Of a stretch of 22,146 bases of DNA, positions 1,257 through 22,146 are shown in pieces. Position 1 is the stretch's first letter, and every line of letters begins with the position of its first letter. The notes beneath the pieces are model-generated. The model saw only the letters and a program-made list of their open reading frames with translations. It was not told where the DNA came from and ran no database searches. The translations under genes were made by a program, and so were the position numbers. The stretch is from a virus, in the IMG/VR virus record IMGVR_UViG_3300007623_000037, positions 1-22,146 of that record; one strand, 5' to 3'.

Positions 1257-1574
1257 ATGAATAGCAAAATCGACTCATTTAAAACATTTTTAGAATCAAT
1301 GGATGTAAATGAAATGAGACTAAACAAATATATGAATGATTTAGATGGTAATTTGTTTAAATACACTCATAAAAAAATTATTTTACCAGATTATAATAAA
1401 ATTAAAAAAATGACAGGCGCAAAAGAACAAGAACTAGACGGTTCAGATGACGAAGGTCTTGTTTCTGCACTTATTGTTAATAAAAAACATATATTGACAT
1501 ATGATGAATTTGAAGGTTTAATTTATAGTAATTATCAATTAAAAGATTTATTAAAAGGTAATATTAATAATTAA
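1257..1574 (+). CDS. Unknown late protein with helical N-terminus (105 aa)
   Basis: One of only three plus-strand gene starts in the window. AAAGGAA precedes the ATG, and a TATAAATA element lies 22 bases upstream, which marks it as a late gene. The 105-residue product is acidic/lysine-rich. Its N-terminus MNSKIDSFKTFLESMDV vaguely resembles the capsid-targeting helix of T4 internal head proteins (pattern ...FxxFLxE/S), but this is weak. No domain is recognised. The gene converges on the C-terminal uvsW piece and their 3' ends overlap by 11 bases. A role in the virion is possible given late expression, but not shown. Confidence 0.7.
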   Translation: MNSKIDSFKTFLESMDVNEMRLNKYMNDLDGNLFKYTHKKIILPDYNKIKKMTGAKEQELDGSDDEGLVSALIVNKKHILTYDEFEGLIYSNYQLKDLLKGNINN

Positions 1575-1896
1575 TTTCACTTAATGGATATTCTATTTCT
1601 GATATAGGAAATTCTTCAGGATTATATGAAGTACTTTTTCTATGTTCATATTGTTTATAGAATATCCCACCAGGTTTACGAACACCAAAGTCATCAACTA
1701 AATCATACACAACAAATTCGGATTTAGTTTCATGTAATCTCATACCTCTACCAATACTTTGTGTAACTGTAGTATATGCTTTTAATGGCGAACTCAATAC
1801 CATGTTATGCAATTTTTTAATGTTTACACCAGTTGATAAAAGTTGATACCCTGATACTAATATTTGATTTTGTTTTTCAATCTTTTTTATTTTCAT
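1564..1896 (-). CDS. uvsW: UvsW-like helicase, C-terminal fragment (110 aa)
   Basis: This is the C-terminal end of a T4 UvsW-type superfamily 2 helicase, the enzyme that unwinds R-loops and branched DNA and moves T4 from origin- to recombination-dependent replication. It carries motif V (STGVNIKKLHNMVL), motif VI (QSIGRGMRLH) and a following YDLVDDFG, matching T4 UvsW in order and spacing. The ATG at 1896 is preferred over the one at 1932 because AAAGGAA lies ten bases before it and the homology starts a few residues later (EKQNQILVSGYQ). The start lies inside the 3' end of the endonuclease gene (20-base overlap), so translation is probably coupled. It lacks motifs I-III and cannot act without the other fragment (2668-4041). 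Confidence 0.85.
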   Translation of the reverse strand: MKIKKIEKQNQILVSGYQLLSTGVNIKKLHNMVLSSPLKAYTTVTQSIGRGMRLHETKSEFVVYDLVDDFGVRKPGGIFYKQYEHRKSTSYNPEEFPISEIEYPLSEINY

Positions 1897-2554
1897 AATA
1901 TTCCTTTGCATATTTGGATGTTGTGCCAACATATTTTATATTTTTAAATTCATAGAATAGTTCTTTTGGTATTCGTTTCATAATCTTTTCTTCTAAATCA
2001 AAACACGTAATTGTATTCTTACTTTTTAATCCTTGCTTTTGCTTTGCTTCATCAGAATGTGTTTTACCATACATCCCATTCTTTATACCGACAGAACCCT
2101 TTTTCTTATTGATTTCATCTGAATATTTTCTACCCTTTGATTCTGCAATTAAACCTCTTTCTTTTGCTTCTTGAACATCTATTTTAATCTTATCACCATT
2201 TTCATCTATATAAACAGCTTTGTCTTTAGAATATTTACCTACTTTTCTTCTGAAGTCGTCAGTCACATTTGGACCAACCCCGTCTAATCCATTTTCTTCT
2301 ATTAGATTAGCCCAATTATCTGATTCAACAATATTGTTTTCTCTTGAAAAATTTATTGCAGTGATTATAAGTTCTTCGCATTCATCTTCAAACTCAGCTA
2401 AAATTTCGGTAGATATATCATTACCATATTTCTTTAAGTGATTTCTCCAATATGTACCAGAACCATAATAACCATAAGGATCGTCTTGTTTAGTTTTACC
2501 GAAATATTTTAATCCGGTTTGATTATGGGTTTTTATATAAAGTTTTATAGACAT
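1877..2554 (-). CDS. GIY-YIG homing endonuclease with NUMOD3-like repeats
   Basis: A 225-residue homing endonuclease. The GIY-YIG core is at residues 1-45: 'LYIKTHNQTGLKYFGKTK' supplies the two motif strands, followed by YYGSGTYWRNHLKKYG, typical of phage Seg/Mob-type members. Residues about 140-185 carry NUMOD3-like DNA-binding motifs (GRKYSDE and NGMYGKTHSDEAKQK). The start has GGAG eight bases upstream. The gene sits exactly between the two parts of uvsW and its tail overlaps the start of the C-terminal piece, so it appears to be the invader that split the helicase gene. A late promoter (2688) and a strong hairpin (2593-2642) lie upstream, suggesting late expression. It looks full length. 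Confidence 0.9.
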   Translation of the reverse strand: MSIKLYIKTHNQTGLKYFGKTKQDDPYGYYGSGTYWRNHLKKYGNDISTEILAEFEDECEELIITAINFSRENNIVESDNWANLIEENGLDGVGPNVTDDFRRKVGKYSKDKAVYIDENGDKIKIDVQEAKERGLIAESKGRKYSDEINKKKGSVGIKNGMYGKTHSDEAKQKQGLKSKNTITCFDLEEKIMKRIPKELFYEFKNIKYVGTTSKYAKEYYENKKD

Positions 2555-2592
2555 TTTTATACTCCTATTTTTGATTAATCATAAGAGTGCAG

Positions 2593-2642
2593 TTGGCGGA
2601 CTGCATTTAATAAATTGCCAATCATCTCTTTAAGTCCGCCAA
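2593..2642 (-). promoter_or_regulatory. 10-bp inverted repeat / structured RNA upstream of the endonuclease
   Basis: TTGGCGGACT at 2593-2602 pairs perfectly with AGTCCGCCAA at 2633-2642, with a 30-base loop. A competing hairpin (GCAGT 2589-2593 with ACTGC 2600-2604) shares one arm, and AAGAG copies at 2583 and 2641 can pair with CTCTT at 2626. The G+C-rich stems stand out in this AT-rich genome. The element lies between the late promoter (2688) and the endonuclease start (2554). It has no U-tract, so it is not a simple terminator; a regulatory or intron-like RNA is possible. Confidence 0.6.
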
Positions 2643-2667
2643 GAGTAAAGAAACAAAAGACAATTTA

Positions 2668-4041
2668 CTAAATACCTCTTATATAATTATTTATATATTT
2701 TTCATCAATATCATCATCTTCAGTCAAATCTTTTGCTAACTTTAGTGTTCCGTCTTTCAATTTAACATCATCATTACTATGCAGATGAATTATAGTATTA
2801 TCTTCAAGGGTTATTTCAAAAAAATCTTCTTCGAGAATTTTTCTAGTTTTTTCCCTGGTCTTAGCATCATCACTTCCAGCAATGTAATAAATGCCATATT
2901 TCTTTTGAAATTCAAAACTATGTTTACCTGTTATCTGTTTTTGTTCTATATCAACACCCGGATGTAATTTTTCCATAATACCAAGATACATGGTTTGTAA
3001 ATGATCTATATGTTGCCCAAGAACTAACGTATTACCTTTTGCTCTTAATTTACATGTAAGATTAACAATAAAATCATTTCTTTGTTCATGTTCTTTTAAA
3101 AATTTTAATTGTTTTGCATATAATTTACCAGATTCTTTAAATAAATTTTTATCATTTTTTGAATATTTAAATATTATACTATTAATTTTGATAGGAGTGG
3201 CAAGTCCTCTTTCTATTAAACCAGCACTAGTTATATATGTTTTAGGTAAACCAAATAATCCGAATAATTCCATTTTCATAATTGGATCTTCTGGTAATGT
3301 ACCGGTAAAACCCCATTTAAATTTACAATTTAATGTACTTTTAACAATAGCAGCAGTTTCATTACTAGCGAATCTATGTGCTTCATCAGTTATAACGTAA
3401 TCTAACTTATCAAGTTCATCATGCCAATTTTGCATTGATTGCCAAGTTGATATAGTAAGTGAATTATTGAAATGCCTATCATTATTACCACCACCGATAA
3501 CATGAGTATCATCATAAAGGTCCATAAGATTATAATCCCTAATATCAGATTTAAACTGTGTAAGTAGGTTAATATTTGGAACAAGTAAAAGTCCTTTTTT
3601 ATTTTGTCTTCTCATAAATTCGGCTATTAATGAGATTGTCATTGATTTACCAGAACCTGTACACATCTTATTAATTTGTTTTACATTTAATATTGATTCT
3701 TTAAATGCAATTTCTTGAAAATCATAAGGTGGAAATGGTAAAATTTTTTTAACATCATCTAAATAATTATTAATATCATCAATAGTATAATCAGATTCAA
3801 GTTTCTCTTGTTCTACACCGAATGATTTTAATAATTGTAAATGACCATTCATAACCACTAACATTTTATTTTGAATATTCCCGAAATATTCGTACGGCGA
3901 TTTATAACCAGCTTTAACAGCTGGTTCAAAATATGCGCCTGGTCTTTCTACTTTCAAATATTCAAATAAATTTTTAATAGTTGTATTATCGGATTCTATA
4001 ACAGAAAACGATTCATTTAATTTATTTACAGTTATACTCAT
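2668..4041 (-). CDS. uvsW: UvsW-like helicase, N-terminal fragment with foreign Hint-like tail (457 aa)
   Basis: This is the N-terminal part of a UvsW-type SF2 helicase. Walker A is CTGSGKS (residues 127-133), the DEAH box is YVITDEAHRF (219-222) and motif III is GFTGT (244-248). The second RecA-like domain then runs through 'YYIAGSDDAKTREKTRKILEED' (about 385-406). Homology stops there, just before motif V. Residues 407-457 are unrelated and read like an intein/Hint block B region (EITLEDNTIIHL, then KDGTLKLAKDLTEDDDI), then a stop. The ATG at 4041 is chosen because UvsW homology begins there and the upstream TTG start lacks support. The stop of a 20-codon leader ORF overlaps this ATG (ATGA). 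Function needs assembly with the 1564-1896 product, or repair of the split. Confidence 0.87.
   Translation of the reverse strand: MSITVNKLNESFSVIESDNTTIKNLFEYLKVERPGAYFEPAVKAGYKSPYEYFGNIQNKMLVVMNGHLQLLKSFGVEQEKLESDYTIDDINNYLDDVKKILPFPPYDFQEIAFKESILNVKQINKMCTGSGKSMTISLIAEFMRRQNKKGLLLVPNINLLTQFKSDIRDYNLMDLYDDTHVIGGGNNDRHFNNSLTISTWQSMQNWHDELDKLDYVITDEAHRFASNETAAIVKSTLNCKFKWGFTGTLPEDPIMKMELFGLFGLPKTYITSAGLIERGLATPIKINSIIFKYSKNDKNLFKESGKLYAKQLKFLKEHEQRNDFIVNLTCKLRAKGNTLVLGQHIDHLQTMYLGIMEKLHPGVDIEQKQITGKHSFEFQKKYGIYYIAGSDDAKTREKTRKILEEDFFEITLEDNTIIHLHSNDDVKLKDGTLKLAKDLTEDDDIDEKYINNYIRGI
2688..2695 (-). promoter_or_regulatory. Candidate late promoter for the homing endonuclease
   Basis: The minus strand reads TATAAATA here, inside the last codons of the uvsW N-terminal fragment and about 135 bases before the endonuclease ATG. 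T4 intron-encoded and free-standing endonucleases are often driven from internal late promoters, which this arrangement resembles. Confidence 0.45.
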
Positions 4042-4100
4042 AATATACTTCTTTCTTGTGCTTGCATAACAAACCCAAAACCAACTATACAAATTTTCAT
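4038..4100 (-). pseudogene. 20-codon leader ORF, possible dehydrogenase relic
   Basis: ATG at 4100 follows an excellent AAGGAG, and the 20-residue product starts MKICIVGFGFV, which looks like the first beta-strand and glycine-rich loop of a nucleotide-sugar or related NAD-dependent dehydrogenase (usual form GxGxVG). After residue 11 the resemblance ends and the frame stops in an ATGA overlap with uvsW. An even shorter ORF (4097-4129, MIKYTYKEYI) stops in an ATGA overlap with this one, giving a cascade of coupled starts. Best reading: the 5' end of a deleted gene whose ribosome-binding site now feeds uvsW. The match is too short to be certain. Confidence 0.4.
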
Positions 4101-13366: not shown

Positions 13367-14605
13367 TTACCAACCAAAGTCATCAGCTGTTAAATCTCTT
13401 TGTACAGTTAAATAATTTGATAATTCTAATAAAATTCTATCCATTTTATTTTCTTTAAGATATTTAATATACTCAGTATCATTATATGTAGTTTTGGCTT
13501 CTTTAAATTGTATAATAATTTCATTCCAAATATTATTAGGAATGCCTTCTTCCATTACCAATGTAAAGTTTCTTTCATAATGCTGTCTATATAATGGGTG
13601 AGAGTCTAGCCATTCTTGAAATCTTTCATGTTCTGTGTTATCATCAACTGTTAATGATTTTATTTCGGCATTAATTTCTTTAATTTTTTCTTTATTACCT
13701 TTATACTCTTTTTTTAGAGTTTCTAATTCTTTTTTCTTTAAATTGATTTTATATGCACCGCTTAATATTTTTTTAATATCTGATGCACCAAATCTAATAT
13801 TTTTATAAACATCTAATATACCGGTACTTTCGCCTTTTTTATTTAATTTATAAACATCAAAACTAGATAGAACGTTTTGTTTAGTTTCATTATCTAGGTC
13901 TTTTGATTTTTTAAAATTAAAAGGGCTATGTAATTCTTTATTAATATTATGTTTATTTAGATGATCAATAAAAGAATCAGAAAATTCAGTATGGTCAATT
14001 ACCTTAGGAACCTCATCAGATGCATCGCCTAAAACAACGTGTTCCATAATCCAGTGGTCCATATGATCATGTTTATTTTCTGGTACTAACCATTTTTTAG
14101 TTAATGCAGAATATTGAAAAACATTGTCTGTATCCCGTTGAGCTTGAATCATATCTTTATCAGGAGAATGTATTAATATTTTTTCAGATGAATTAAATTC
14201 TCGCGCTAGAACTAACATAATATCATCTGCTTCAGCTCTCGGTACAGCAATAACTTTCCAAGGTAAATTTAATTCAATTTGTTCAATTAACCCATCGATT
14301 TCAGAAAATACTTCGCTAAAATTAATTTCCGATTCTTCTCTACCTTTTTTTCTTCCTGCCTTATATCCCTTGTACACATCTTTACGCCAATAACCACCGG
14401 CAGATTTGTCTAAACATATAATCATATCACCAAATTTTGGAGAAAATTCTTGTTGTATAGAAAATAGTTCTTGAGATATTAAATATTTCGTATAGTGTAT
14501 AAATTCAGAAGTAACGTATGTACCATTTTGTTTTGATGGTCTAATGTTAGCAATAGATGTATGTATCATTCTATGTATAATAGAACTAAAATCTATAAGT
14601 ATCAT
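13367..14605 (-). CDS. rnh: RNase H / FEN-like 5' nuclease, T4 Rnh homologue (412 aa)
   Basis: Removes RNA primers from lagging-strand fragments as a 5'-3' nuclease. Acidic active-site residues follow T4 RNase H: D5 (LIDFSS), D66 (ICLDKSAGGYWRKD, matching T4 CIDNAKSGYWRRD), EADD at 125-128, D149 and D151 (SPDKDM) and D194/D197 (LGDASDEVP). At 412 residues it is about 100 longer than T4 RNase H (305). The extra length includes a lysine/glutamate-rich likely coiled coil near 285-315. It starts directly downstream of gp32, separated only by a strong hairpin (14620-14646), with AAAGGA before the ATG. Confidence 0.92.
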   Translation of the reverse strand: MILIDFSSIIHRMIHTSIANIRPSKQNGTYVTSEFIHYTKYLISQELFSIQQEFSPKFGDMIICLDKSAGGYWRKDVYKGYKAGRKKGREESEINFSEVFSEIDGLIEQIELNLPWKVIAVPRAEADDIMLVLAREFNSSEKILIHSPDKDMIQAQRDTDNVFQYSALTKKWLVPENKHDHMDHWIMEHVVLGDASDEVPKVIDHTEFSDSFIDHLNKHNINKELHSPFNFKKSKDLDNETKQNVLSSFDVYKLNKKGESTGILDVYKNIRFGASDIKKILSGAYKINLKKKELETLKKEYKGNKEKIKEINAEIKSLTVDDNTEHERFQEWLDSHPLYRQHYERNFTLVMEEGIPNNIWNEIIIQFKEAKTTYNDTEYIKYLKENKMDRILLELSNYLTVQRDLTADDFGW

Positions 14606-15886: not shown

Positions 15887-16586
15887 CTTTTACTGTAAGT
15901 AAAACCTTATAACCTTCTAATGATTCATTATTTAATAAAATTCTGTAAGAATCTTTTGCCGAATTATATTTTACATCTACTGTATAATTTGATTCTGAAA
16001 ACATTTTAAAATTTTCAACAGGAATTTTAATTTCAAATTCTTTTGATGTATTTGCTGGTTTAGTAACAGAGTATGTATTAGATTTTGCATTAAATTTATT
16101 TGTTGCACCTAATGAAACTTTTACGTCGCCGTCTTTTGATGTAAAAATTACTTCAGTTAAGTCTTTAAATACGCCTGACGCAGATTTAATGTTTTTAATA
16201 TCATCAACTGTTAATTTAAATGTAGCTACACTTGCAACTGCTTCAGTTTTTTCAAAAGGAGTTGCATCCTTGTCCCAAAAATCCATTAACGCCGAATTAG
16301 CAGTAATATATTTAGATTCAGTCGAATCATCACTAATATTAACAACGTTTCCTTCAATGCTAACTGATTTATCATCGCTAAATAATCCAAATAATGAAAT
16401 AAATTCACTTAATGAATCTTTTAGCGGCACGTCTTCAAATACATCGCTATCTAATTTTGAAATATCGCATTGTACTAATACATCCATTGACGATGATACT
16501 GCAACCGTAACAGGGTATTTTAAAATAACTGTGTCAGTAACTTTATTGATTTCCTTTAATACTGTAATAACATTCTTGTTAAACAT
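15882..16586 (-). CDS. gp45: DNA polymerase sliding clamp, T4 gp45 homologue (234 aa)
   Basis: A trimeric clamp that tethers DNA polymerase and, in T4, activates late transcription. Length matches T4 gp45 (228). The order of features fits: N-terminal helix and strand (ITVLKEINKVTDTVILKYP), the central acidic DSLSEFISLFGLF (T4 DLNGFLGILSLV), 'VSIEGNVVNISDDSTESKYI' (T4 AEISQSEDGNIKIADARSTIF), the mid-protein repeat FKLTVDDIKNIKSASGVFK (T4 IKAEDLQQLLRVSRGLQ), and the final strands IPVENFKMFSESNYTVDVKY (T4 INMANMKMQPGNYKLLLW). AAAGGA precedes the ATG. It has its own promoter and a terminator-like hairpin, so it can be made as a single-gene transcript. Confidence 0.88.
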   Translation of the reverse strand: MFNKNVITVLKEINKVTDTVILKYPVTVAVSSSMDVLVQCDISKLDSDVFEDVPLKDSLSEFISLFGLFSDDKSVSIEGNVVNISDDSTESKYITANSALMDFWDKDATPFEKTEAVASVATFKLTVDDIKNIKSASGVFKDLTEVIFTSKDGDVKVSLGATNKFNAKSNTYSVTKPANTSKEFEIKIPVENFKMFSESNYTVDVKYNSAKDSYRILLNNESLEGYKVLLTVKV

Positions 16587-16592
16587 TTCTAT

Positions 16593-16638
16593 CCTTTTTT
16601 TATTTATGTATTATTATATAATAGTTTTATTTAATTTT
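16593..16638 (-). promoter_or_regulatory. gp45: gp45 promoter/leader
   Basis: Minus strand: AAAATTAAATAAAA block, TATAAT (16618-16613), AATACATAA and AAAGG. Nearly the same 46 bases lie before the 150-residue gene (12225-12270). The upstream box differs from the TTGTTTTAAT of the other promoters, suggesting a second promoter class. Confidence 0.6.
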
Positions 16639-16670
16639 TATGTGTTTAAACTCAAAAGAAAAAAATTCTT

Positions 16671-17627
16671 TTAAGCCTTTGTTAATGCATATAGGAAAAA
16701 CCCAATACTATTATAAAATTCATGTTTTGTTTTTGGTACTTTAATAAAACCATCTTCTGTTGATTTAAAGATTGTACTTCCACCGCCAGACAATGAAATA
16801 AAATCACATTTATCTAAAATTTTTCCATATTTAGATTCAATTAACTCTAATAATTCTTTTAGATAACCTTTTTTAACTTCATCAATATAATCATTAAATG
16901 GATGTTTTTGGCCTCTTAGTTTATAAATCCCAGTATCAATAATTTCTTTTGCTTCATGTAAAGTAATTTTTCTACCATGTAATTCAAATACTTTCTTAGC
17001 AACCAAAGTAGCGATTTTCATAACACCTTCTCTTTCAATACCTTCGAATAGATTCGGCGATGTTTTGCCATCTGTTACTAAGAACATATCTAATGTATTA
17101 AAACCAATATCACAACCAACAAAACTAGTCGTTCCTAAAAATTCTTCTTGAGGAGTTGGGAAGTTATTTCCGTATTTATCAATTGTTAACTTAGATCCAG
17201 CACCTTGCGGCAAAATATATACTTCGTCAAAAATAAATCTTTCTTGATTAACTTCAAAATCCATAAGACCTTCTTTAAAATGCCCAGAATTTTCGATTTG
17301 CGCTTTAGAAAGCCCCGAAACAATAATATCAGGTTTTTTCCCAATCATTTTAATTACATGATATAAAAATAGTGGTGCATAATATTCTAAATTTTTATAA
17401 TCAGTAATATCAATTAAGTTCTCTGAAGGTAAATGCAGTGCATTTTCGCCAACATAATAACTATGATCCCTGAAGTCATAAATTCTATTATCTGACACAT
17501 GTTGATTTCTTTTTGTAACGCCGATTGTACTAGTGAATTTAAATTGTTTTTCGATATGTCCTTCTGAAGTACCATAACTTACTTTAACATCACCAAATCC
17601 GATGTCAATTCCTAAAACTGTTTTCAT
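16671..17627 (-). CDS. ParM/Alp-type actin-like ATPase (318 aa)
   Basis: A bacterial-actin-type protein like plasmid ParM/StbA and archaeal or phage Alps, which polymerise with ATP to move or position DNA. Actin-fold signatures: phosphate 1 VLGIDIGFGDVKVSYG (D8, G10, K15), phosphate 2 VGCDIGFNTLDMFLV (170-184, with D173 and D180), and adenosine loop ISLSGGGSTIF (277-287). The end NSIGFFLYAL is also typical. Length 318 fits ParM (320). AAAAGGA precedes the ATG, and a TATAAT (17658) suggests its own promoter. Upstream come a zinc microprotein and two pairs of small proteins; none is clearly a ParR and I see no centromere-like iterons. The fold is near certain, the cellular role open. Confidence 0.88.
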   Translation of the reverse strand: MKTVLGIDIGFGDVKVSYGTSEGHIEKQFKFTSTIGVTKRNQHVSDNRIYDFRDHSYYVGENALHLPSENLIDITDYKNLEYYAPLFLYHVIKMIGKKPDIIVSGLSKAQIENSGHFKEGLMDFEVNQERFIFDEVYILPQGAGSKLTIDKYGNNFPTPQEEFLGTTSFVGCDIGFNTLDMFLVTDGKTSPNLFEGIEREGVMKIATLVAKKVFELHGRKITLHEAKEIIDTGIYKLRGQKHPFNDYIDEVKKGYLKELLELIESKYGKILDKCDFISLSGGGSTIFKSTEDGFIKVPKTKHEFYNSIGFFLYALTKA

Positions 17628-17657
17628 TTTGTAATTATCCTTTTATTTGATATCTAT

Positions 17658-17683
17658 ATTATAATATAATATTATTTAACATT
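17658..17683 (-). promoter_or_regulatory. Candidate promoter of the actin gene
   Basis: Minus strand: AATGTTAAAT overlapping the end of the zinc microprotein gene, ten bases, then TATAAT (17663-17658), about 30 bases before the 17627 start. It matches the 6897 promoter best. Confidence 0.4.
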
Positions 17684-17755
17684 TCCGCATTTACTACAAA
17701 TAACAGAATCATTTAAAGTATTGCATTTTAAGCAAACCCACCATTTATTACTCAT
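17672..17755 (-). CDS. 27-residue zinc-finger microprotein (RanBP2-like)
   Basis: A short gene with a strong AAGGAG five bases before the ATG; the Shine-Dalgarno sits in the intergenic gap after the 17765 stop. The whole protein is one zinc-finger-like unit: W-V-C-L-K-C-N-T-L-N...C-S-K-C-G, i.e. two CxxC pairs at C8/C11 and C20/C23 with the Trp before the first pair and the Asn after the second Cys, as in RanBP2/NZF fingers (spacing two residues shorter than usual). Such fingers bind ssRNA or ubiquitin-like partners in eukaryotes; here the ligand is unknown. It sits between the acidic protein and the actin gene, so it may be part of that operon. Confidence 0.75.
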   Translation of the reverse strand: MSNKWWVCLKCNTLNDSVICSKCGNVK

Positions 17756-17764
17756 AATAACTCC

Positions 17765-18076
17765 TTATAAATCTAATTTCTTTAATTCATCCGCTACTTT
17801 TACAGGACGGTTGACATCATTTATTATAGGTTTTTGAACAATATCTTGAGAAACTGACCCAAATTCAGCATCTAAATCTAAATAGTCATCTGTTCTTTCA
17901 GGTGATTTCTGTTTTGTTTCTTTAGATTCTTGTCGTTTTTTTGTTTTTTGTTGTGTTTCTTTAGGTTTTTTATGTGAATTGTCATCTCCGCCTACCACAG
18001 TACTAGTACCATCTGAAAAGTTTATAGACAATTCATCTATATCTTTTGTACATTCTATAAGTAATCTAAAAGACAT
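17765..18076 (-). CDS. Charged small protein, second copy of the paired module (103 aa)
   Basis: ATG at 18076 (GAG seven bases upstream) is preferred to the GTG at 18088. The gene starts inside the last 11 bases of the membrane microprotein gene, so translation is coupled. Residues 1-28 form a beta-hairpin-like module (LLIECTKDIDELSINFSDG). Residues 33-65 are disordered, Lys/Gln/Glu-rich (KKPKETQQKTKKRQESKE). The end VQKPIINDVNRPVKVADELK, then KLDL, aligns without gaps with the end of the 98-residue protein at 18223 (KP-x-I...V-x2-E-(M/L)-x2-(M/L)-(D/E)). No known family. The shape (small fold, floppy linker, short conserved tail) suggests an adaptor. Confidence 0.7.
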   Translation of the reverse strand: MSFRLLIECTKDIDELSINFSDGTSTVVGGDDNSHKKPKETQQKTKKRQESKETKQKSPERTDDYLDLDAEFGSVSQDIVQKPIINDVNRPVKVADELKKLDL

Positions 18077-18221
18077 GATTAATCTCACTTTTTATTGTAT
18101 CAAAAGTTCTTAACAATATTTGGGTTTCCGTTAATTCTGGATTATTAAATCTTATTTGTAATGATATTAAAACAATATATATTGAAAGAACCAATACAAT
18201 TATTTTTAAAATTAAACTCAT
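18066..18221 (-). CDS. Single-pass membrane microprotein, second copy (51 aa)
   Basis: ATG at 18221 with GGAG eight bases upstream, inside the final codons of the preceding gene. Residues 3-21 (LILKIIVLVLSIYIVLISL) form one transmembrane helix. The remaining 30 residues are polar, probably cytoplasmic (IRFNNPELTETQILLRTFD, then TIKSEINHVF). The tail FD-x-I pattern recurs in the 44-residue protein at 18516 (SSFDNIID). It overlaps the next gene by 11 bases. Function unknown; membrane tether is a guess from its architecture and coupling. Confidence 0.7.
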   Translation of the reverse strand: MSLILKIIVLVLSIYIVLISLQIRFNNPELTETQILLRTFDTIKSEINHVF

Positions 18222-18222
18222 A

Positions 18223-18519
18223 TTAGAACTCCATATCAGTCATTTCTGACGGAACCGCTTTATGTTCTTTTCTTTCAGGTATTTGAGGTTTTTCTACTGT
18301 AACATCATTACTTTCATCATTCATATCTTCTGATATTTTTTTAGAAAATTGCCCATCAATTACATCTTTTGCCATTTCTTCATGTATTTTTCTTGCTTCA
18401 GATTTTTCTATATCTATCTGTGGCATTACATTTGAAACTTCACCGTCTTCAAATTCAATATCAAAAGAAACGCTTTTAATATTTCTATCTTTCGGTAAAT
18501 CTTCTATTTTAATTATCAT
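18223..18519 (-). CDS. Charged small protein, first copy of the paired module (98 aa)
   Basis: The ATG overlaps the TGA of the 44-residue membrane protein (ATGA), preceded by GAGG, so the two are translated together. Residues 1-32 form a beta module (IIKIEDLPKD, IKSVSFDIEFEDGEV). The middle is acidic and helical (EKSEARKIHEEMAKDVI). The end EKPQIPERKEHKAVPSEMTD-MEF is the counterpart of the tail of the 103-residue protein. The gene is not in any family I recognise. Its last codons contain the GGAG used by the following membrane-protein gene, so the whole 18650-17765 block reads as one coupled operon. Confidence 0.75.
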   Translation of the reverse strand: MIIKIEDLPKDRNIKSVSFDIEFEDGEVSNVMPQIDIEKSEARKIHEEMAKDVIDGQFSKKISEDMNDESNDVTVEKPQIPERKEHKAVPSEMTDMEF

Positions 18520-18650
18520 TTTTTTTCCTCATTAATTACTTTCATATCTATTATGTTATCAAACGATGAGTTTAACGTATCGTTTGCATTAAATAAGAAT
18601 AAAATAAAAATCATTGCGATAATCGCAAATAAAATTGTACCATCACTCAT
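18516..18650 (-). CDS. Single-pass membrane microprotein, first copy (44 aa)
   Basis: ATG at 18650 follows AGGGGG, the strongest Shine-Dalgarno in the region. Residues 6-21 (ILFAIIAMIFILFLFN) form a transmembrane helix. The 23-residue tail (ANDTLNSSFDNIIDMKVIN, then EEKK) is polar. It is the first gene after the promoter at 18700. Its TGA overlaps the start of the 98-residue gene. Length, topology and the FD-x-I tail motif make it a likely paralogue of the 51-residue protein at 18066. Confidence 0.7.
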   Translation of the reverse strand: MSDGTILFAIIAMIFILFLFNANDTLNSSFDNIIDMKVINEEKK

Positions 18651-18699
18651 ATAACCCCCTGTTTGATTTACCGTTTAATATCCTTTTTTTTATAATATA

Positions 18700-18725
18700 A
18701 TTATATCAAAAGAATATTAAAACAA
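18700..18725 (-). promoter_or_regulatory. Promoter of the small-protein/actin operon
   Basis: Minus strand: TTGTTTTAAT (18725-18716), then TGATATAAT (18708-18700), an extended -10. It sits 50 bases before the 18650 start and directly after PhoH. Confidence 0.6.
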
Positions 18726-18737
18726 GTTTAAATTTGA

Positions 18738-20111
18738 TTAATTTTCAAATATTTTTTCAGTCCATTCAGTAATTTTACCTCTAACAACTTTATTAAGTTC
18801 AGTTCCGAATATATTTAATTCATCATGTTCAGTCTTTGATGCTTTCATAAGTACAGATAATCCATTTGTATATTTGTTCACATACGGGTGGTCGATTTGT
18901 CTATTAGAACCTATACAAACAACTTTTGAATCTTTATCCATTCTTGATAATACTGTTTGCAAACTAGTTTTGGCAAAGTTTTGTACTTCATCAACAATAA
19001 CGTATGCATTTGAAATAGTTCTACCTCTAATCGACCCATTCCACATTGTTTCTATATTATATTTAGTAATCATTTCTTCAACTTTACTATCAATACTATC
19101 TTGTATATTTACATTTTCTTTTTTCTTCATTTCTTTTTGTGCAATGAATTCTAATGTATCATATAGAGGATAATTATATATTTTAAATTTTTCTTCCAAA
19201 CCTGGCAAGAAACCTACTTCTTCAGCTTTATCTGTGCTTTCAACAGAATTCCTTATATAAATGATTTTATCATATTTACCTTGTCTAACTTGTTTCATAC
19301 CAGCAGCTAACGCTAATAATGTTTTTCCAGATCCAGCCAATGCTTCTATAATACAAACAGCGAACCTTTCATCCAACATACCTGACATAGCGAATAACTG
19401 CCCGACATTTAACGGTTTAACAATATTTTTTCTAAGTTCGTCTTCTTTGATAAAATTTATTTGTTCATTAACAATATATGCTAACTGTTCATTCCCATCT
19501 GTACTTTTAAAATGATAACAATAGTTTTCAATCTTATATTCTGAATCATATTCTTTAATATTTTTCATTTCCATTGAATTAAATATACTAGAATCAATCG
19601 TTAGTTCTTTAATAAATTCATTTGATAATGATTCCTTGTTTCTTAATTGGCCTTCTGTTTTTACATTTAATGATATGGCCCTGGTTCTGCACATAATGTC
19701 ATTAGATAATAATATTGTACTTTCTGGTTGTTCATAATAATTAGTAACAAATTGTGCAACCTTAATGATCTTTCTATCATTGATAACTGATTTATCAACA
19801 TCAACTAAACCGTAATCTTTAAACGATACAATGTCAATAAAAATATCTTTAACTTTAACTGACATAATCGTAACATCTTTTTTAGATCCAGCTTTTTTGG
19901 TTTTAATGACTTCTGCCTCAGATAAAAGTCGGCCAAATTCCCTAGCTTGGAAATTTATTTCGCTGAAACCAGATTTCTTACTATCTAATTCGTCGATTAC
20001 TGTTTCAGGAAGAACAATTAAGTTTTCTCCAGATTGACCTATTGCAATCAATTGATTTGCATCTTCTAATATTATATTAGTGTCTAGAACATATATTTTT
20101 TCAAAATTCAT
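18738..20111 (-). CDS. phoH: PIN-PhoH protein (PhoH2-type RNase/helicase, 457 aa)
   Basis: An N-terminal PIN nuclease domain with acidic residues D10 (VLDTNI), E36 (PETVIDELD), D112 (NDRKI) and D138 (SNDIMCRTRA) is followed by a PhoH ATPase domain: Walker A LAGSGKTLLALAAG (258-271), YIRNSVES, GFLPGLEEK, Walker B VIVDEVQNF (372-379), and GSNRQIDHPY. PhoH2 proteins unwind and cut RNA; PhoH-like genes are common in marine T4-like phages. The four PIN acids appear intact. The start has GGAG eight bases upstream and begins three bases after the upstream gene's stop, so the two are coupled. The extended promoter at 18700 separates it from the small-protein operon. Confidence 0.92.
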   Translation of the reverse strand: MNFEKIYVLDTNIILEDANQLIAIGQSGENLIVLPETVIDELDSKKSGFSEINFQAREFGRLLSEAEVIKTKKAGSKKDVTIMSVKVKDIFIDIVSFKDYGLVDVDKSVINDRKIIKVAQFVTNYYEQPESTILLSNDIMCRTRAISLNVKTEGQLRNKESLSNEFIKELTIDSSIFNSMEMKNIKEYDSEYKIENYCYHFKSTDGNEQLAYIVNEQINFIKEDELRKNIVKPLNVGQLFAMSGMLDERFAVCIIEALAGSGKTLLALAAGMKQVRQGKYDKIIYIRNSVESTDKAEEVGFLPGLEEKFKIYNYPLYDTLEFIAQKEMKKKENVNIQDSIDSKVEEMITKYNIETMWNGSIRGRTISNAYVIVDEVQNFAKTSLQTVLSRMDKDSKVVCIGSNRQIDHPYVNKYTNGLSVLMKASKTEHDELNIFGTELNKVVRGKITEWTEKIFEN

Positions 20112-20684: not shown

Positions 20685-21344
20685 TTAAATTAAATATTTC
20701 CCAGATTCGTCGCCTCTAATTTTTACTTGTTTATATTTACCATCTTCGAAATATGGTGTTTCGGTAAATTTTACTAATTTTTCAGTTTCCCTAAATACTT
20801 TAAAGTTTAACTCGGATTCAAATCTACCGGGTTCTTTAAAATCGTTATTATTTTCCAATAAAATTTGATTGTCATCTAAAAAATTTTTTATCATCTTATT
20901 TGTAGCTAAACACACTCTATATTTATTACTATAATATTTGCCGAAATACCAAATTTTTCCAGGATAATCTTTTGATAGTTGTTGTGCTTCTTCTCTATTT
21001 CTTATTGTAAAAAATACCGAGTATTCCGATTTTCTTGATTCTTTTAATGGCTCGTTCTCAATAAATTTTAATAATGCGGCCGGGCCGTTGTCGTTTTCTC
21101 TTCTAAGTAAAATATATTCTTCATTGGGTCTTAGCGGTTTTACAGTATTTACCATCCACCGATTTTCAGAATTTGTAGATTTGTCATAATTAACCATTAT
21201 AGGTTCTTTTTCTAATTCAAAATACCAATTAAACGGTGGTTTTATATTAATATATTCTTTAAATTCGATTTTGTTGTTTTTTAGAGCTTCTTTACATTCA
21301 TTATAAAATGTAATAGAATAATAAGGATCTATCGTAATAAACAT
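20685..21344 (-). CDS. Unknown late protein (219 aa)
   Basis: A 219-residue protein that I cannot place. It begins MFITIDPYYSITFYNECKEA and shows a mixed alpha/beta pattern with many aromatic residues (INIKPPFNWYFELEKEP, GKIWYFGKYYSNKYRVCLA) and a C-terminal GRFESELNFKVFRETEKLV. No signal peptide or membrane helix. A TATAAATA lies 20 bases before the ATG and AAAAGGA nine bases before it, so it is a late gene, probably virion-linked or involved in lysis/attachment timing. It is isolated from the FG-GAP gene upstream by a strong terminator. Confidence 0.7.
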   Translation of the reverse strand: MFITIDPYYSITFYNECKEALKNNKIEFKEYINIKPPFNWYFELEKEPIMVNYDKSTNSENRWMVNTVKPLRPNEEYILLRRENDNGPAALLKFIENEPLKESRKSEYSVFFTIRNREEAQQLSKDYPGKIWYFGKYYSNKYRVCLATNKMIKNFLDDNQILLENNNDFKEPGRFESELNFKVFRETEKLVKFTETPYFEDGKYKQVKIRGDESGKYLI

Positions 21345-21414: not shown

Positions 21415-22146
21415 TTATTCAAATATATATACTGAACCTGCATCACCGATTCCATTTGGATCTTCCTGAGGTGCGCCAACTATAATTTTAGATTCATTAC
21501 ATGCTACTGAAAAACCAAAATAATCATATGATGCAGCATCAGAAGCAACAATTTTAATCTCATTGGTTCCATCTAAATCATATACATATACTGAACCTGC
21601 ATTAGCAAGGCCATTTGGATCTTCATAAGGTGCACCAACTATAATTTTAGATTGATTACATGCGACTGATACACCAAAATAATCATCTGCTGCAGCATCA
21701 GAAGCAACAATTTTAATCTCATTAGTTCCATCTAAATCATATACATATACTGAACCTGCATCGCCGATTCCATTTGGATCTTCATTATATGCCCCAACTA
21801 TAATTTTAGATTCATTACATGCTACTGAATAACCAAATCTATCACTTCCATCAGCATCAGAAGCAACTATTTTAATCTCATTGGTTCCATCTAAATCATA
21901 TACATATACTGAACCTGCCCCGGCGATTCCATCTGGGTCTTCATTATATGCACCAACTATAATTTTAGATTCATTACATGCTACTGAATAACCAAAATAA
22001 TCACTAACCGCAGCATCAGAAGCACGAATTTTAATCTCATTAGTTCCATCCAAATCATAAACATATACTGAACCTGCAGCACCGATTCCATTTGGGTCTT
22101 CATAATATGCACCAACTATAATTTTAGATTCATTACATGCTACTGA
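21415..22146 (-). CDS. FG-GAP beta-propeller repeat protein, N-terminus beyond window
   Basis: The frame is open to the right edge, so the start is outside; 243 residues are visible. They consist of about 4.5 copies of a 53-residue repeat: DLDGTNEIKIVASDA, DYFGxSVACNESKIIVGA, EDPNGIGDAGSVYVY. This is the FG-GAP_2 form of the integrin-alpha beta-propeller blade (FG..., VGA..., AGSVYVY). The DxDG loop could bind calcium. The protein ends shortly after the last blade (SVYIFE). Such repeats in a phage suggest an adhesin or receptor-binding structural protein. Its late timing is inferred from the neighbouring terminator and late unit only. Confidence 0.85.
   Translation of the reverse strand, partial: SVACNESKIIVGAYYEDPNGIGAAGSVYVYDLDGTNEIKIRASDAAVSDYFGYSVACNESKIIVGAYNEDPDGIAGAGSVYVYDLDGTNEIKIVASDADGSDRFGYSVACNESKIIVGAYNEDPNGIGDAGSVYVYDLDGTNEIKIVASDAAADDYFGVSVACNQSKIIVGAPYEDPNGLANAGSVYVYDLDGTNEIKIVASDAASYDYFGFSVACNESKIIVGAPQEDPNGIGDAGSVYIFE
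21423..22146 (-). repeat. 159-bp tandem repeats encoding FG-GAP blades
   Basis: About 4.5 head-to-tail copies, period 159 bases, with long identical blocks (for example around TAATCTCATTGGTTCCATCT, at about 21555, 21714, 21873 and 22032). Differences cluster at two places per unit: before FG (residues about 16-19) and after VGA (about 37-47). Confidence 0.9.

Follow-up and report, generated by a model that had tools for sequence, protein, structure and literature searches.

A T4-like phage probably encodes, upstream of a ParM-like actin gene, a tandemly duplicated pair of ParR/AlpA-like adaptors (A and B) that serve this adjoining actin and carry no recognisable DNA-binding domain, a reading to which we assign a probability of roughly 0.6. 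The window, by which we mean the whole stretch of 22,146 nucleotides that was analysed (IMG/VR record IMGVR_UViG_3300007623_000037), belongs to a T4-like phage with a sliding clamp, a Gp23-like capsid protein, an exonuclease and helicases. On its minus strand, the interval from phoH to the actin gene holds TM44, A, TM51, B and a 27-aa ORF with four cysteines, laid out as follows.

18516..18650, minus strand: TM44, a single-pass membrane microprotein of 44 aa with one hydrophobic stretch, upstream of A
18223..18519, minus strand: putative adaptor A, 98 aa, built of an N-terminal beta module followed by a low-complexity linker and a conserved C-terminal tail; its family counts 27 members including that of the window, upstream of phage actin genes
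18430..18519, minus strand: N-terminal beta module of A, residues 1-30, recognised by profile; the AlphaFold model is of low confidence and without regular strands
18226..18294, minus strand: C-terminal tail of A, the last 23 residues, conserved through to the final residue across the 27 A proteins
18066..18221, minus strand: TM51, a single-pass membrane microprotein of 51 aa with one hydrophobic stretch, between A and B
17765..18076, minus strand: putative adaptor B, paralogue of A by profile, 103 aa; its family counts 29 members including that of the window
17990..18076, minus strand: N-terminal beta module of B, residues 1-29, modelled by AlphaFold as a hairpin (15-19/25-29) with moderate confidence
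17768..17836, minus strand: C-terminal tail of B, the last 23 residues, conserved through to the final residue across the 29 B proteins
17672..17755, minus strand: zinc-ribbon-like microprotein of 27 aa with four Cys, between B and the actin gene
16671..17627, minus strand: ParM-like phage actin, the proposed partner, 318 aa, matched by Pfam, PHROG and pCBH ParM profiles

Re-reading the ORFs of the minus strand confirmed the positions, lengths and overlaps of the four genes from TM44 to B that a preliminary description of this DNA had recorded: TM44 and A overlap by 4 nt, A and TM51 are separated by 1 nt, and TM51 and B overlap by 11 nt. B would reach 107 aa if started at an upstream GTG. Small Cys-rich, zinc-ribbon-like ORFs recur between B and actin, at 17672-17755 (-) in the window and, among the numbered loci collected here, in L076 (3341-3457, 38 aa) and L025 (3219-3437), where the ORF also carries a membrane stretch. 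A 219-aa protein encoded at 20685-21344 (-) of the window belongs to PHROG 12147 (unknown function), and its look-alikes often end between a few nt and 70 nt before A (e.g., L025, L030, L037, L059, L063, L065, L135, L153); it may lie in the same operon as A. Elsewhere in the window, an ORF with four FG-GAP repeats (21415-22053 (-); PF14312, 7.2e-62) is unusual beside replication genes, and the UvsW-like helicase gene (1564-4092 (-)) looks interrupted, its N part (2668-4092) entering non-helicase sequence and its C part occupying 1564-1932. Between these parts lies a GIY-YIG-like ORF (1877-2554), which may belong to an intron or intein; Rfam gave no intron match at the interrupted helicase, and Pfam none for the two smaller ORFs.

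To define the two families, seed HMMs of A and B were searched against 16,745 ORFs from the collected loci, and both genes were found in 32 of 59 actin loci. The curated set comprises 27 A, 29 B and 9 single-copy sequences. The A and B families omit near-identical or same-contig copies (e.g., L010, L026, L027, L036, L039, L054, L067, L071) as well as fragments (L008-A, L024, L034, L044, L046); the profiles exclude seven further loci from a scan with B (L105, L113, L117, L121, L132, L133, L135), and alignments A2 and A3 omit KT1024, A2 also omitting L041.

The gapless 23-residue C-terminal tail that the preliminary description had noticed in both charged proteins is present and above chance, with five identities and a BLOSUM62 score of 19 that was reached by 0.2% of 20,000 shuffles (p = 0.002). 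By full-length local alignment, A and B of the window are not significantly similar (p = 0.44, shuffles). The window pair alone supports the tail only, and the kinship is secure because the tail profiles of the relatives find each other: against a background of 4,645 C-termini, 27 of the 29 B tails rank in the top 0.1% under the A-tail profile, while under the B-tail profile 18 of the 27 A tails do so and 25 rank within 1%. Counted from the C-terminus, A tails have M at -6 (25/27), E at -7 (26/27) and F or L at -1 (27/27), and B tails have L, I or M at -6 (28/29), E at -7 (25/29) and F, I, L or Y at -1 (29/29), giving a consensus whose final position is the C-terminal residue, R-x3/4-[VI]-[AP]-x-E-[LM]-x-[DN]-[LIMF]-[DE]-[FI]. 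Single-copy adaptor forms match both the A and the B profiles, and two of them (L051 and L045) join an N-terminal module resembling that of A (E = 5.6e-7 and 3.3e-7, respectively) to B-like tails that outscore all 4,645 background tails under the B profile. Profile comparison thus finds the relation proposed between the two charged proteins, through cross-ranking tails and single-copy intermediates, though HHalign of the full A and B families, with P = 0.001, returned a probability of only 21%, which is weak. Judged on these profiles, A and B are diverged paralogues.

Both proteins share a conserved architecture of N-terminal beta module, low-complexity linker and C-terminal tail. An N-terminal module in each of the two, as claimed earlier, is supported; the A and B modules do not match each other directly in profile searches (best E about 3) and are linked only through the single-copy forms. 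The AlphaFold models of A and B are poor (mean pLDDT 69 and 67, pTM 0.25); the weak model of B contains a hairpin within residues 15-29, a short helix at 96-99 and a disordered linker, and that of A is almost without regular structure. Profile searches with A, B and the single-copy forms returned no Pfam match at cut-off and no match in the PDB, and 27 B members yielded no informative Pfam family. The sole PHROG match in the adaptor family is PHROG 38645, an unannotated group (unknown function) that contains the Campylobacter phage member (5.6e-64) and that A and B of the window do not reach by themselves. No relative of B turned up in plasmids at E 0.1, nor any A or B match in the 21 bacterial loci that carry remote actins, and the literature, covered mostly at the level of titles and abstracts, yielded no description of these adaptors.

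The preliminary description had taken the duplicated unit to be a membrane microprotein plus a charged adaptor, and had suggested that the two resulting pairs make up a heteromeric membrane complex. The tight TM44/A and TM51/B overlaps speak for such a complex. In the window, the 146-nt gap between A and B is occupied by TM51; in 24 of the 26 other loci with both genes, by contrast, A abuts or overlaps B directly (-4 to +27 nt) without membrane genes, the exceptions being L041 (253 nt) and L048 (232 nt). TM51 has one relative in the viral contig collection, in a contig 99.8% identical to the window, where it is unchanged, and a second copy of TM44 was seen only in this same contig (L002), with two synonymous and two non-synonymous changes; neither gene was found in another species, and no TM44-like ORF was seen upstream of A in other loci. 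Of the proposed conservation of the four-gene order, the A-B order therefore stands in many relatives, but TM44 and TM51 do not. Nor are TM44 and TM51 recognisable as paralogues with similar FD-x-I tails, since their likeness is no better than that of shuffles (p = 0.51 for the whole proteins, 0.13 for the tails). Because A abuts B without the TM genes in most loci, TM51 is restricted and TM44 is unlike TM51, the conserved duplicated pair is, on the sequences compared here, A plus B, with the membrane microproteins as a local addition.

Membrane proteins encoded directly upstream of an adaptor are also found elsewhere. Campylobacter phages carry an unrelated gene for an 83-aa single-pass membrane protein directly before the adaptor gene, the 15 records that have it being those that have the adaptor, and a membrane protein gene ends 8 nt before A in L048. 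Membrane protein/adaptor pairings recur and are not the rule: together with the window, these are the clear cases among the adaptor genes examined (3/42), with a borderline hydrophobic ORF upstream of the adaptor in L042 and L072. No membrane gene is conserved beside each adaptor copy, and the A/B genes track phage actin; a heteromeric membrane complex is unsupported as a general feature, and we consider it very improbable. The tandem charged pair itself was found neither in T4 nor in six other actin-less phages. Two further hydrophobic signals were set aside. A match of TM51 to PF24874 Piezo (4.5e-4, below cut-off) was taken as an artefact of hydrophobic composition, and out-of-frame hydrophobic ORFs over the B start in several relatives (L028 3156-3326, L029 3185-3316, L031 1609-1755, L008 244-390, L076 3056-3172) are closed in the window and most likely due to chance.

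The actin gene of the window matches ALP_N (4.3e-10) and MreB-like_C (5.1e-10) in Pfam and PHROG 691, a partition protein (1.3e-38), and its profile matches pCBH ParM (1.8e-10), which by sequence makes it a ParM relative. In several large-phage groups, the actin-like gene is annotated just as 'partition protein' or 'MreB-like ATPase', and we found no account in the literature of the role of this actin in lytic infection. A scan of viral contigs with the actin profile (alignment A1) recovered 59 loci, and 42 of them contain an A/B-type gene. For nine of the 17 adaptor-less loci, the contig ends less than 600 nt upstream of actin; the other eight include L064 and three Campylobacter records, whose adaptor lies in another part of the genome or contig, two short contigs within which actin occurs without an adaptor (L060, L061), and two very distant actins without an adaptor at the locus (L079, L080). 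A scan with B alone, blind to actin, returned 37 viral loci; actin was present in all 35 that were re-read (in L135 on the other side), and the remaining two (L035, L046) had also been found by the actin scan. Among 37 loci for which the spacing was measured, the adaptor gene comes before actin, at most 110 nt away in 27 of them and 170-2437 nt away in the other 10.

The two genes also co-occur among sequenced phages. Of 50,697 phage records, 35 contain the actin, and these phages also carry an adaptor. The adaptor queries were each specific to one clade and drawn from genomes with actin, and could miss remote adaptors that occur without it. The adaptor accompanies actin in Rhizobium (10/10), Vibrio (9/9; six records with B, two more, plus Va2 by profile) and Acinetobacter (1/1, by profile) phages, and in Campylobacter phages each gene occurs in 15 records, 13 of them shared accessions and two being IBB_35 records on different contigs. 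In Campylobacter phages and one viral contig, actin and adaptor lie apart, even at a distance of about 55 kb, and both are kept. When actin-bearing records were searched whole, 14 of 15 contained the adaptor, the miss being an 8.1-kb fragment, and the same profile found it in none of seven actin-less phages, including T4 and NCTC12673 from the sister Campylobacter genus. RYC gave a marginal actin match only (0.0045). Since the linkage persists where the neighbours differ, we take the partner of A and B to be actin in preference to PhoH, the clamp or a membrane protein. In Campylobacter phage CJLB-12 (L176 360-739), the adaptor loses its reading frame within the linker, with both conserved ends intact in two frames, and the adaptor matches of CJLB-14 and CP21 come in two pieces; the adaptor may be dispensable in these three phages, or those reads may be wrong.

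The A/B tails might instead be sliding-clamp-binding motifs that tether something, possibly actin, to the T4-type clamp gp45, in the manner of the gp43, gp55 and gp33 C-termini on flexible linkers. The clamp gene adjoins the actin gene in the window, and the A/B architecture matches that described for T4 gp33 and gp55, both of which end in a hydrophobic and acidic peptide carried on a flexible linker (PMC2988020, PMC7892883). Strong tails (rank 1-2 of 4,563) occur in the single-copy forms of L045, L051, L052 and L053 and in the Campylobacter form, and the five phages without a detected T4-type clamp include three with weak tails (ranks 133, 133 and 468) and two with fair ones (2 and 8); the clamp-less phages are, however, also the most distant, so that this trend is confounded. 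Unlike gp33 and gp55, the A/B family tracks actin and not the clamp, 6 of 12 actin-bearing records having no T4-type clamp match, and G005 is one phage without such a match whose adaptors have ordinary tails nonetheless. The tail also appears unlike most polymerase C-termini of these or related phages, which rank 568 (KT1024), 640 (G006) and 46 (Campylobacter) of 4,563 under the adaptor tail profile, with only G005 close (12) and T4 gp43 at 1,258. Clamp binding is an unlikely explanation of the tails. As an observation on other ends in this clade, the 5'-3' exonuclease of the window (13367-14605 (-)) and its relatives have a conserved end TADDFGW and the polymerases end in ...LDDW or ...LEEW, possible candidates for clamp-binding ends on sequence grounds. 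Two separate genes encode DNA polymerase B in L014 (39293-42226; phiKT1024) and in L169-L174, and in the G004 contig the second part of the polymerase runs into what is presumably intein-like sequence.

Returning to A and B as adaptors of the phage actin, a tether role is suggested because two conserved ends sit on a flexible linker, the tail being predicted as a short amphipathic segment at the exact C-terminus. We infer physical binding to actin, whereby one end would engage the actin filament and the other would hold a cargo, whether phage DNA, a complex for replication or packaging, or a site on the membrane, which the filament might position or move during infection. In this phage A is flanked by TM44 and TM51, and one may guess that these tie the system to the membrane. 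That A and B join a cargo to actin is proposed by analogy with AlpA, an adaptor co-transcribed with its actin in the alpA-alpC operon; AlpA links phage DNA to an actin-like filament, and efficient replication requires both (PMC4446434, PMC5539076).

A and B could also regulate the assembly state of actin, by nucleation, capping or disassembly, with no cargo linked. The co-occurrence and operon evidence applies to a regulator as it does to an adaptor, and AlpA is reported to stimulate disassembly of AlpC filaments in its DNA-free state (PMC5539076). A protein whose two conserved ends are separated by a long flexible linker, however, resembles a tether more than a capper, an argument from architecture only, and we regard pure regulation as doubtful. 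A more elaborate version of the adaptor reading, which we offer tentatively and think improbable as a whole, is that viral actin is coupled to the phage replication machinery by a hitherto unnamed family of duplicated adaptors that are mostly disordered, the tail docking on the sliding clamp or the filament and some lineages adding their own membrane microproteins as an anchor. If this elaborate version is true, T4-like phages would possess a cytoskeletal system for positioning replication without ParR or a centromere. The co-occurring adaptor, found even where unlinked, offers a handle on what the phage actin carries, and provides an annotation for small 'hypothetical protein' genes in Vibrio, Campylobacter, Rhizobium and Acinetobacter phages.

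Among known actin systems, the arrangement resembles AlpA-AlpC of the Corynebacterium glutamicum prophage CGP3 in gene order (PMC4446434, PMC5539076): a phage actin with a small adaptor gene upstream, close by and in the same operon. In the same sources, AlpA is a demonstrated binder of specific DNA sites, whereas A and B have no recognised DNA-binding fold. A and B further differ from AlpA in forming a duplicated pair in T4-like phages, and the Campylobacter phage adaptor departs from the AlpA-AlpC layout by lying elsewhere in the genome. With ParM-ParR-parC systems (e.g., pCBH, PMC6599009), the present system shares an actin that is a ParM relative by profile and a small partner gene beside it; unlike in those systems, the partner gene lies upstream of the actin gene and not downstream. 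No ParR-type ribbon-helix-helix match was found in A or B, no helices are predicted in the N-terminal module (in low-confidence models), and positions 16500-19000 of the window contain no parC-like iteron array, the sole three-copy repeat family there lying inside the coding linkers. Because the adaptors differ from ParR in position and fold family and no iterons were found near the operon, we do not consider the system a member of ParMRC. A and B together with the actin would rather constitute a phage actin-plus-adaptor system, a variant outside ParMRC with an AlpA-like gene order.
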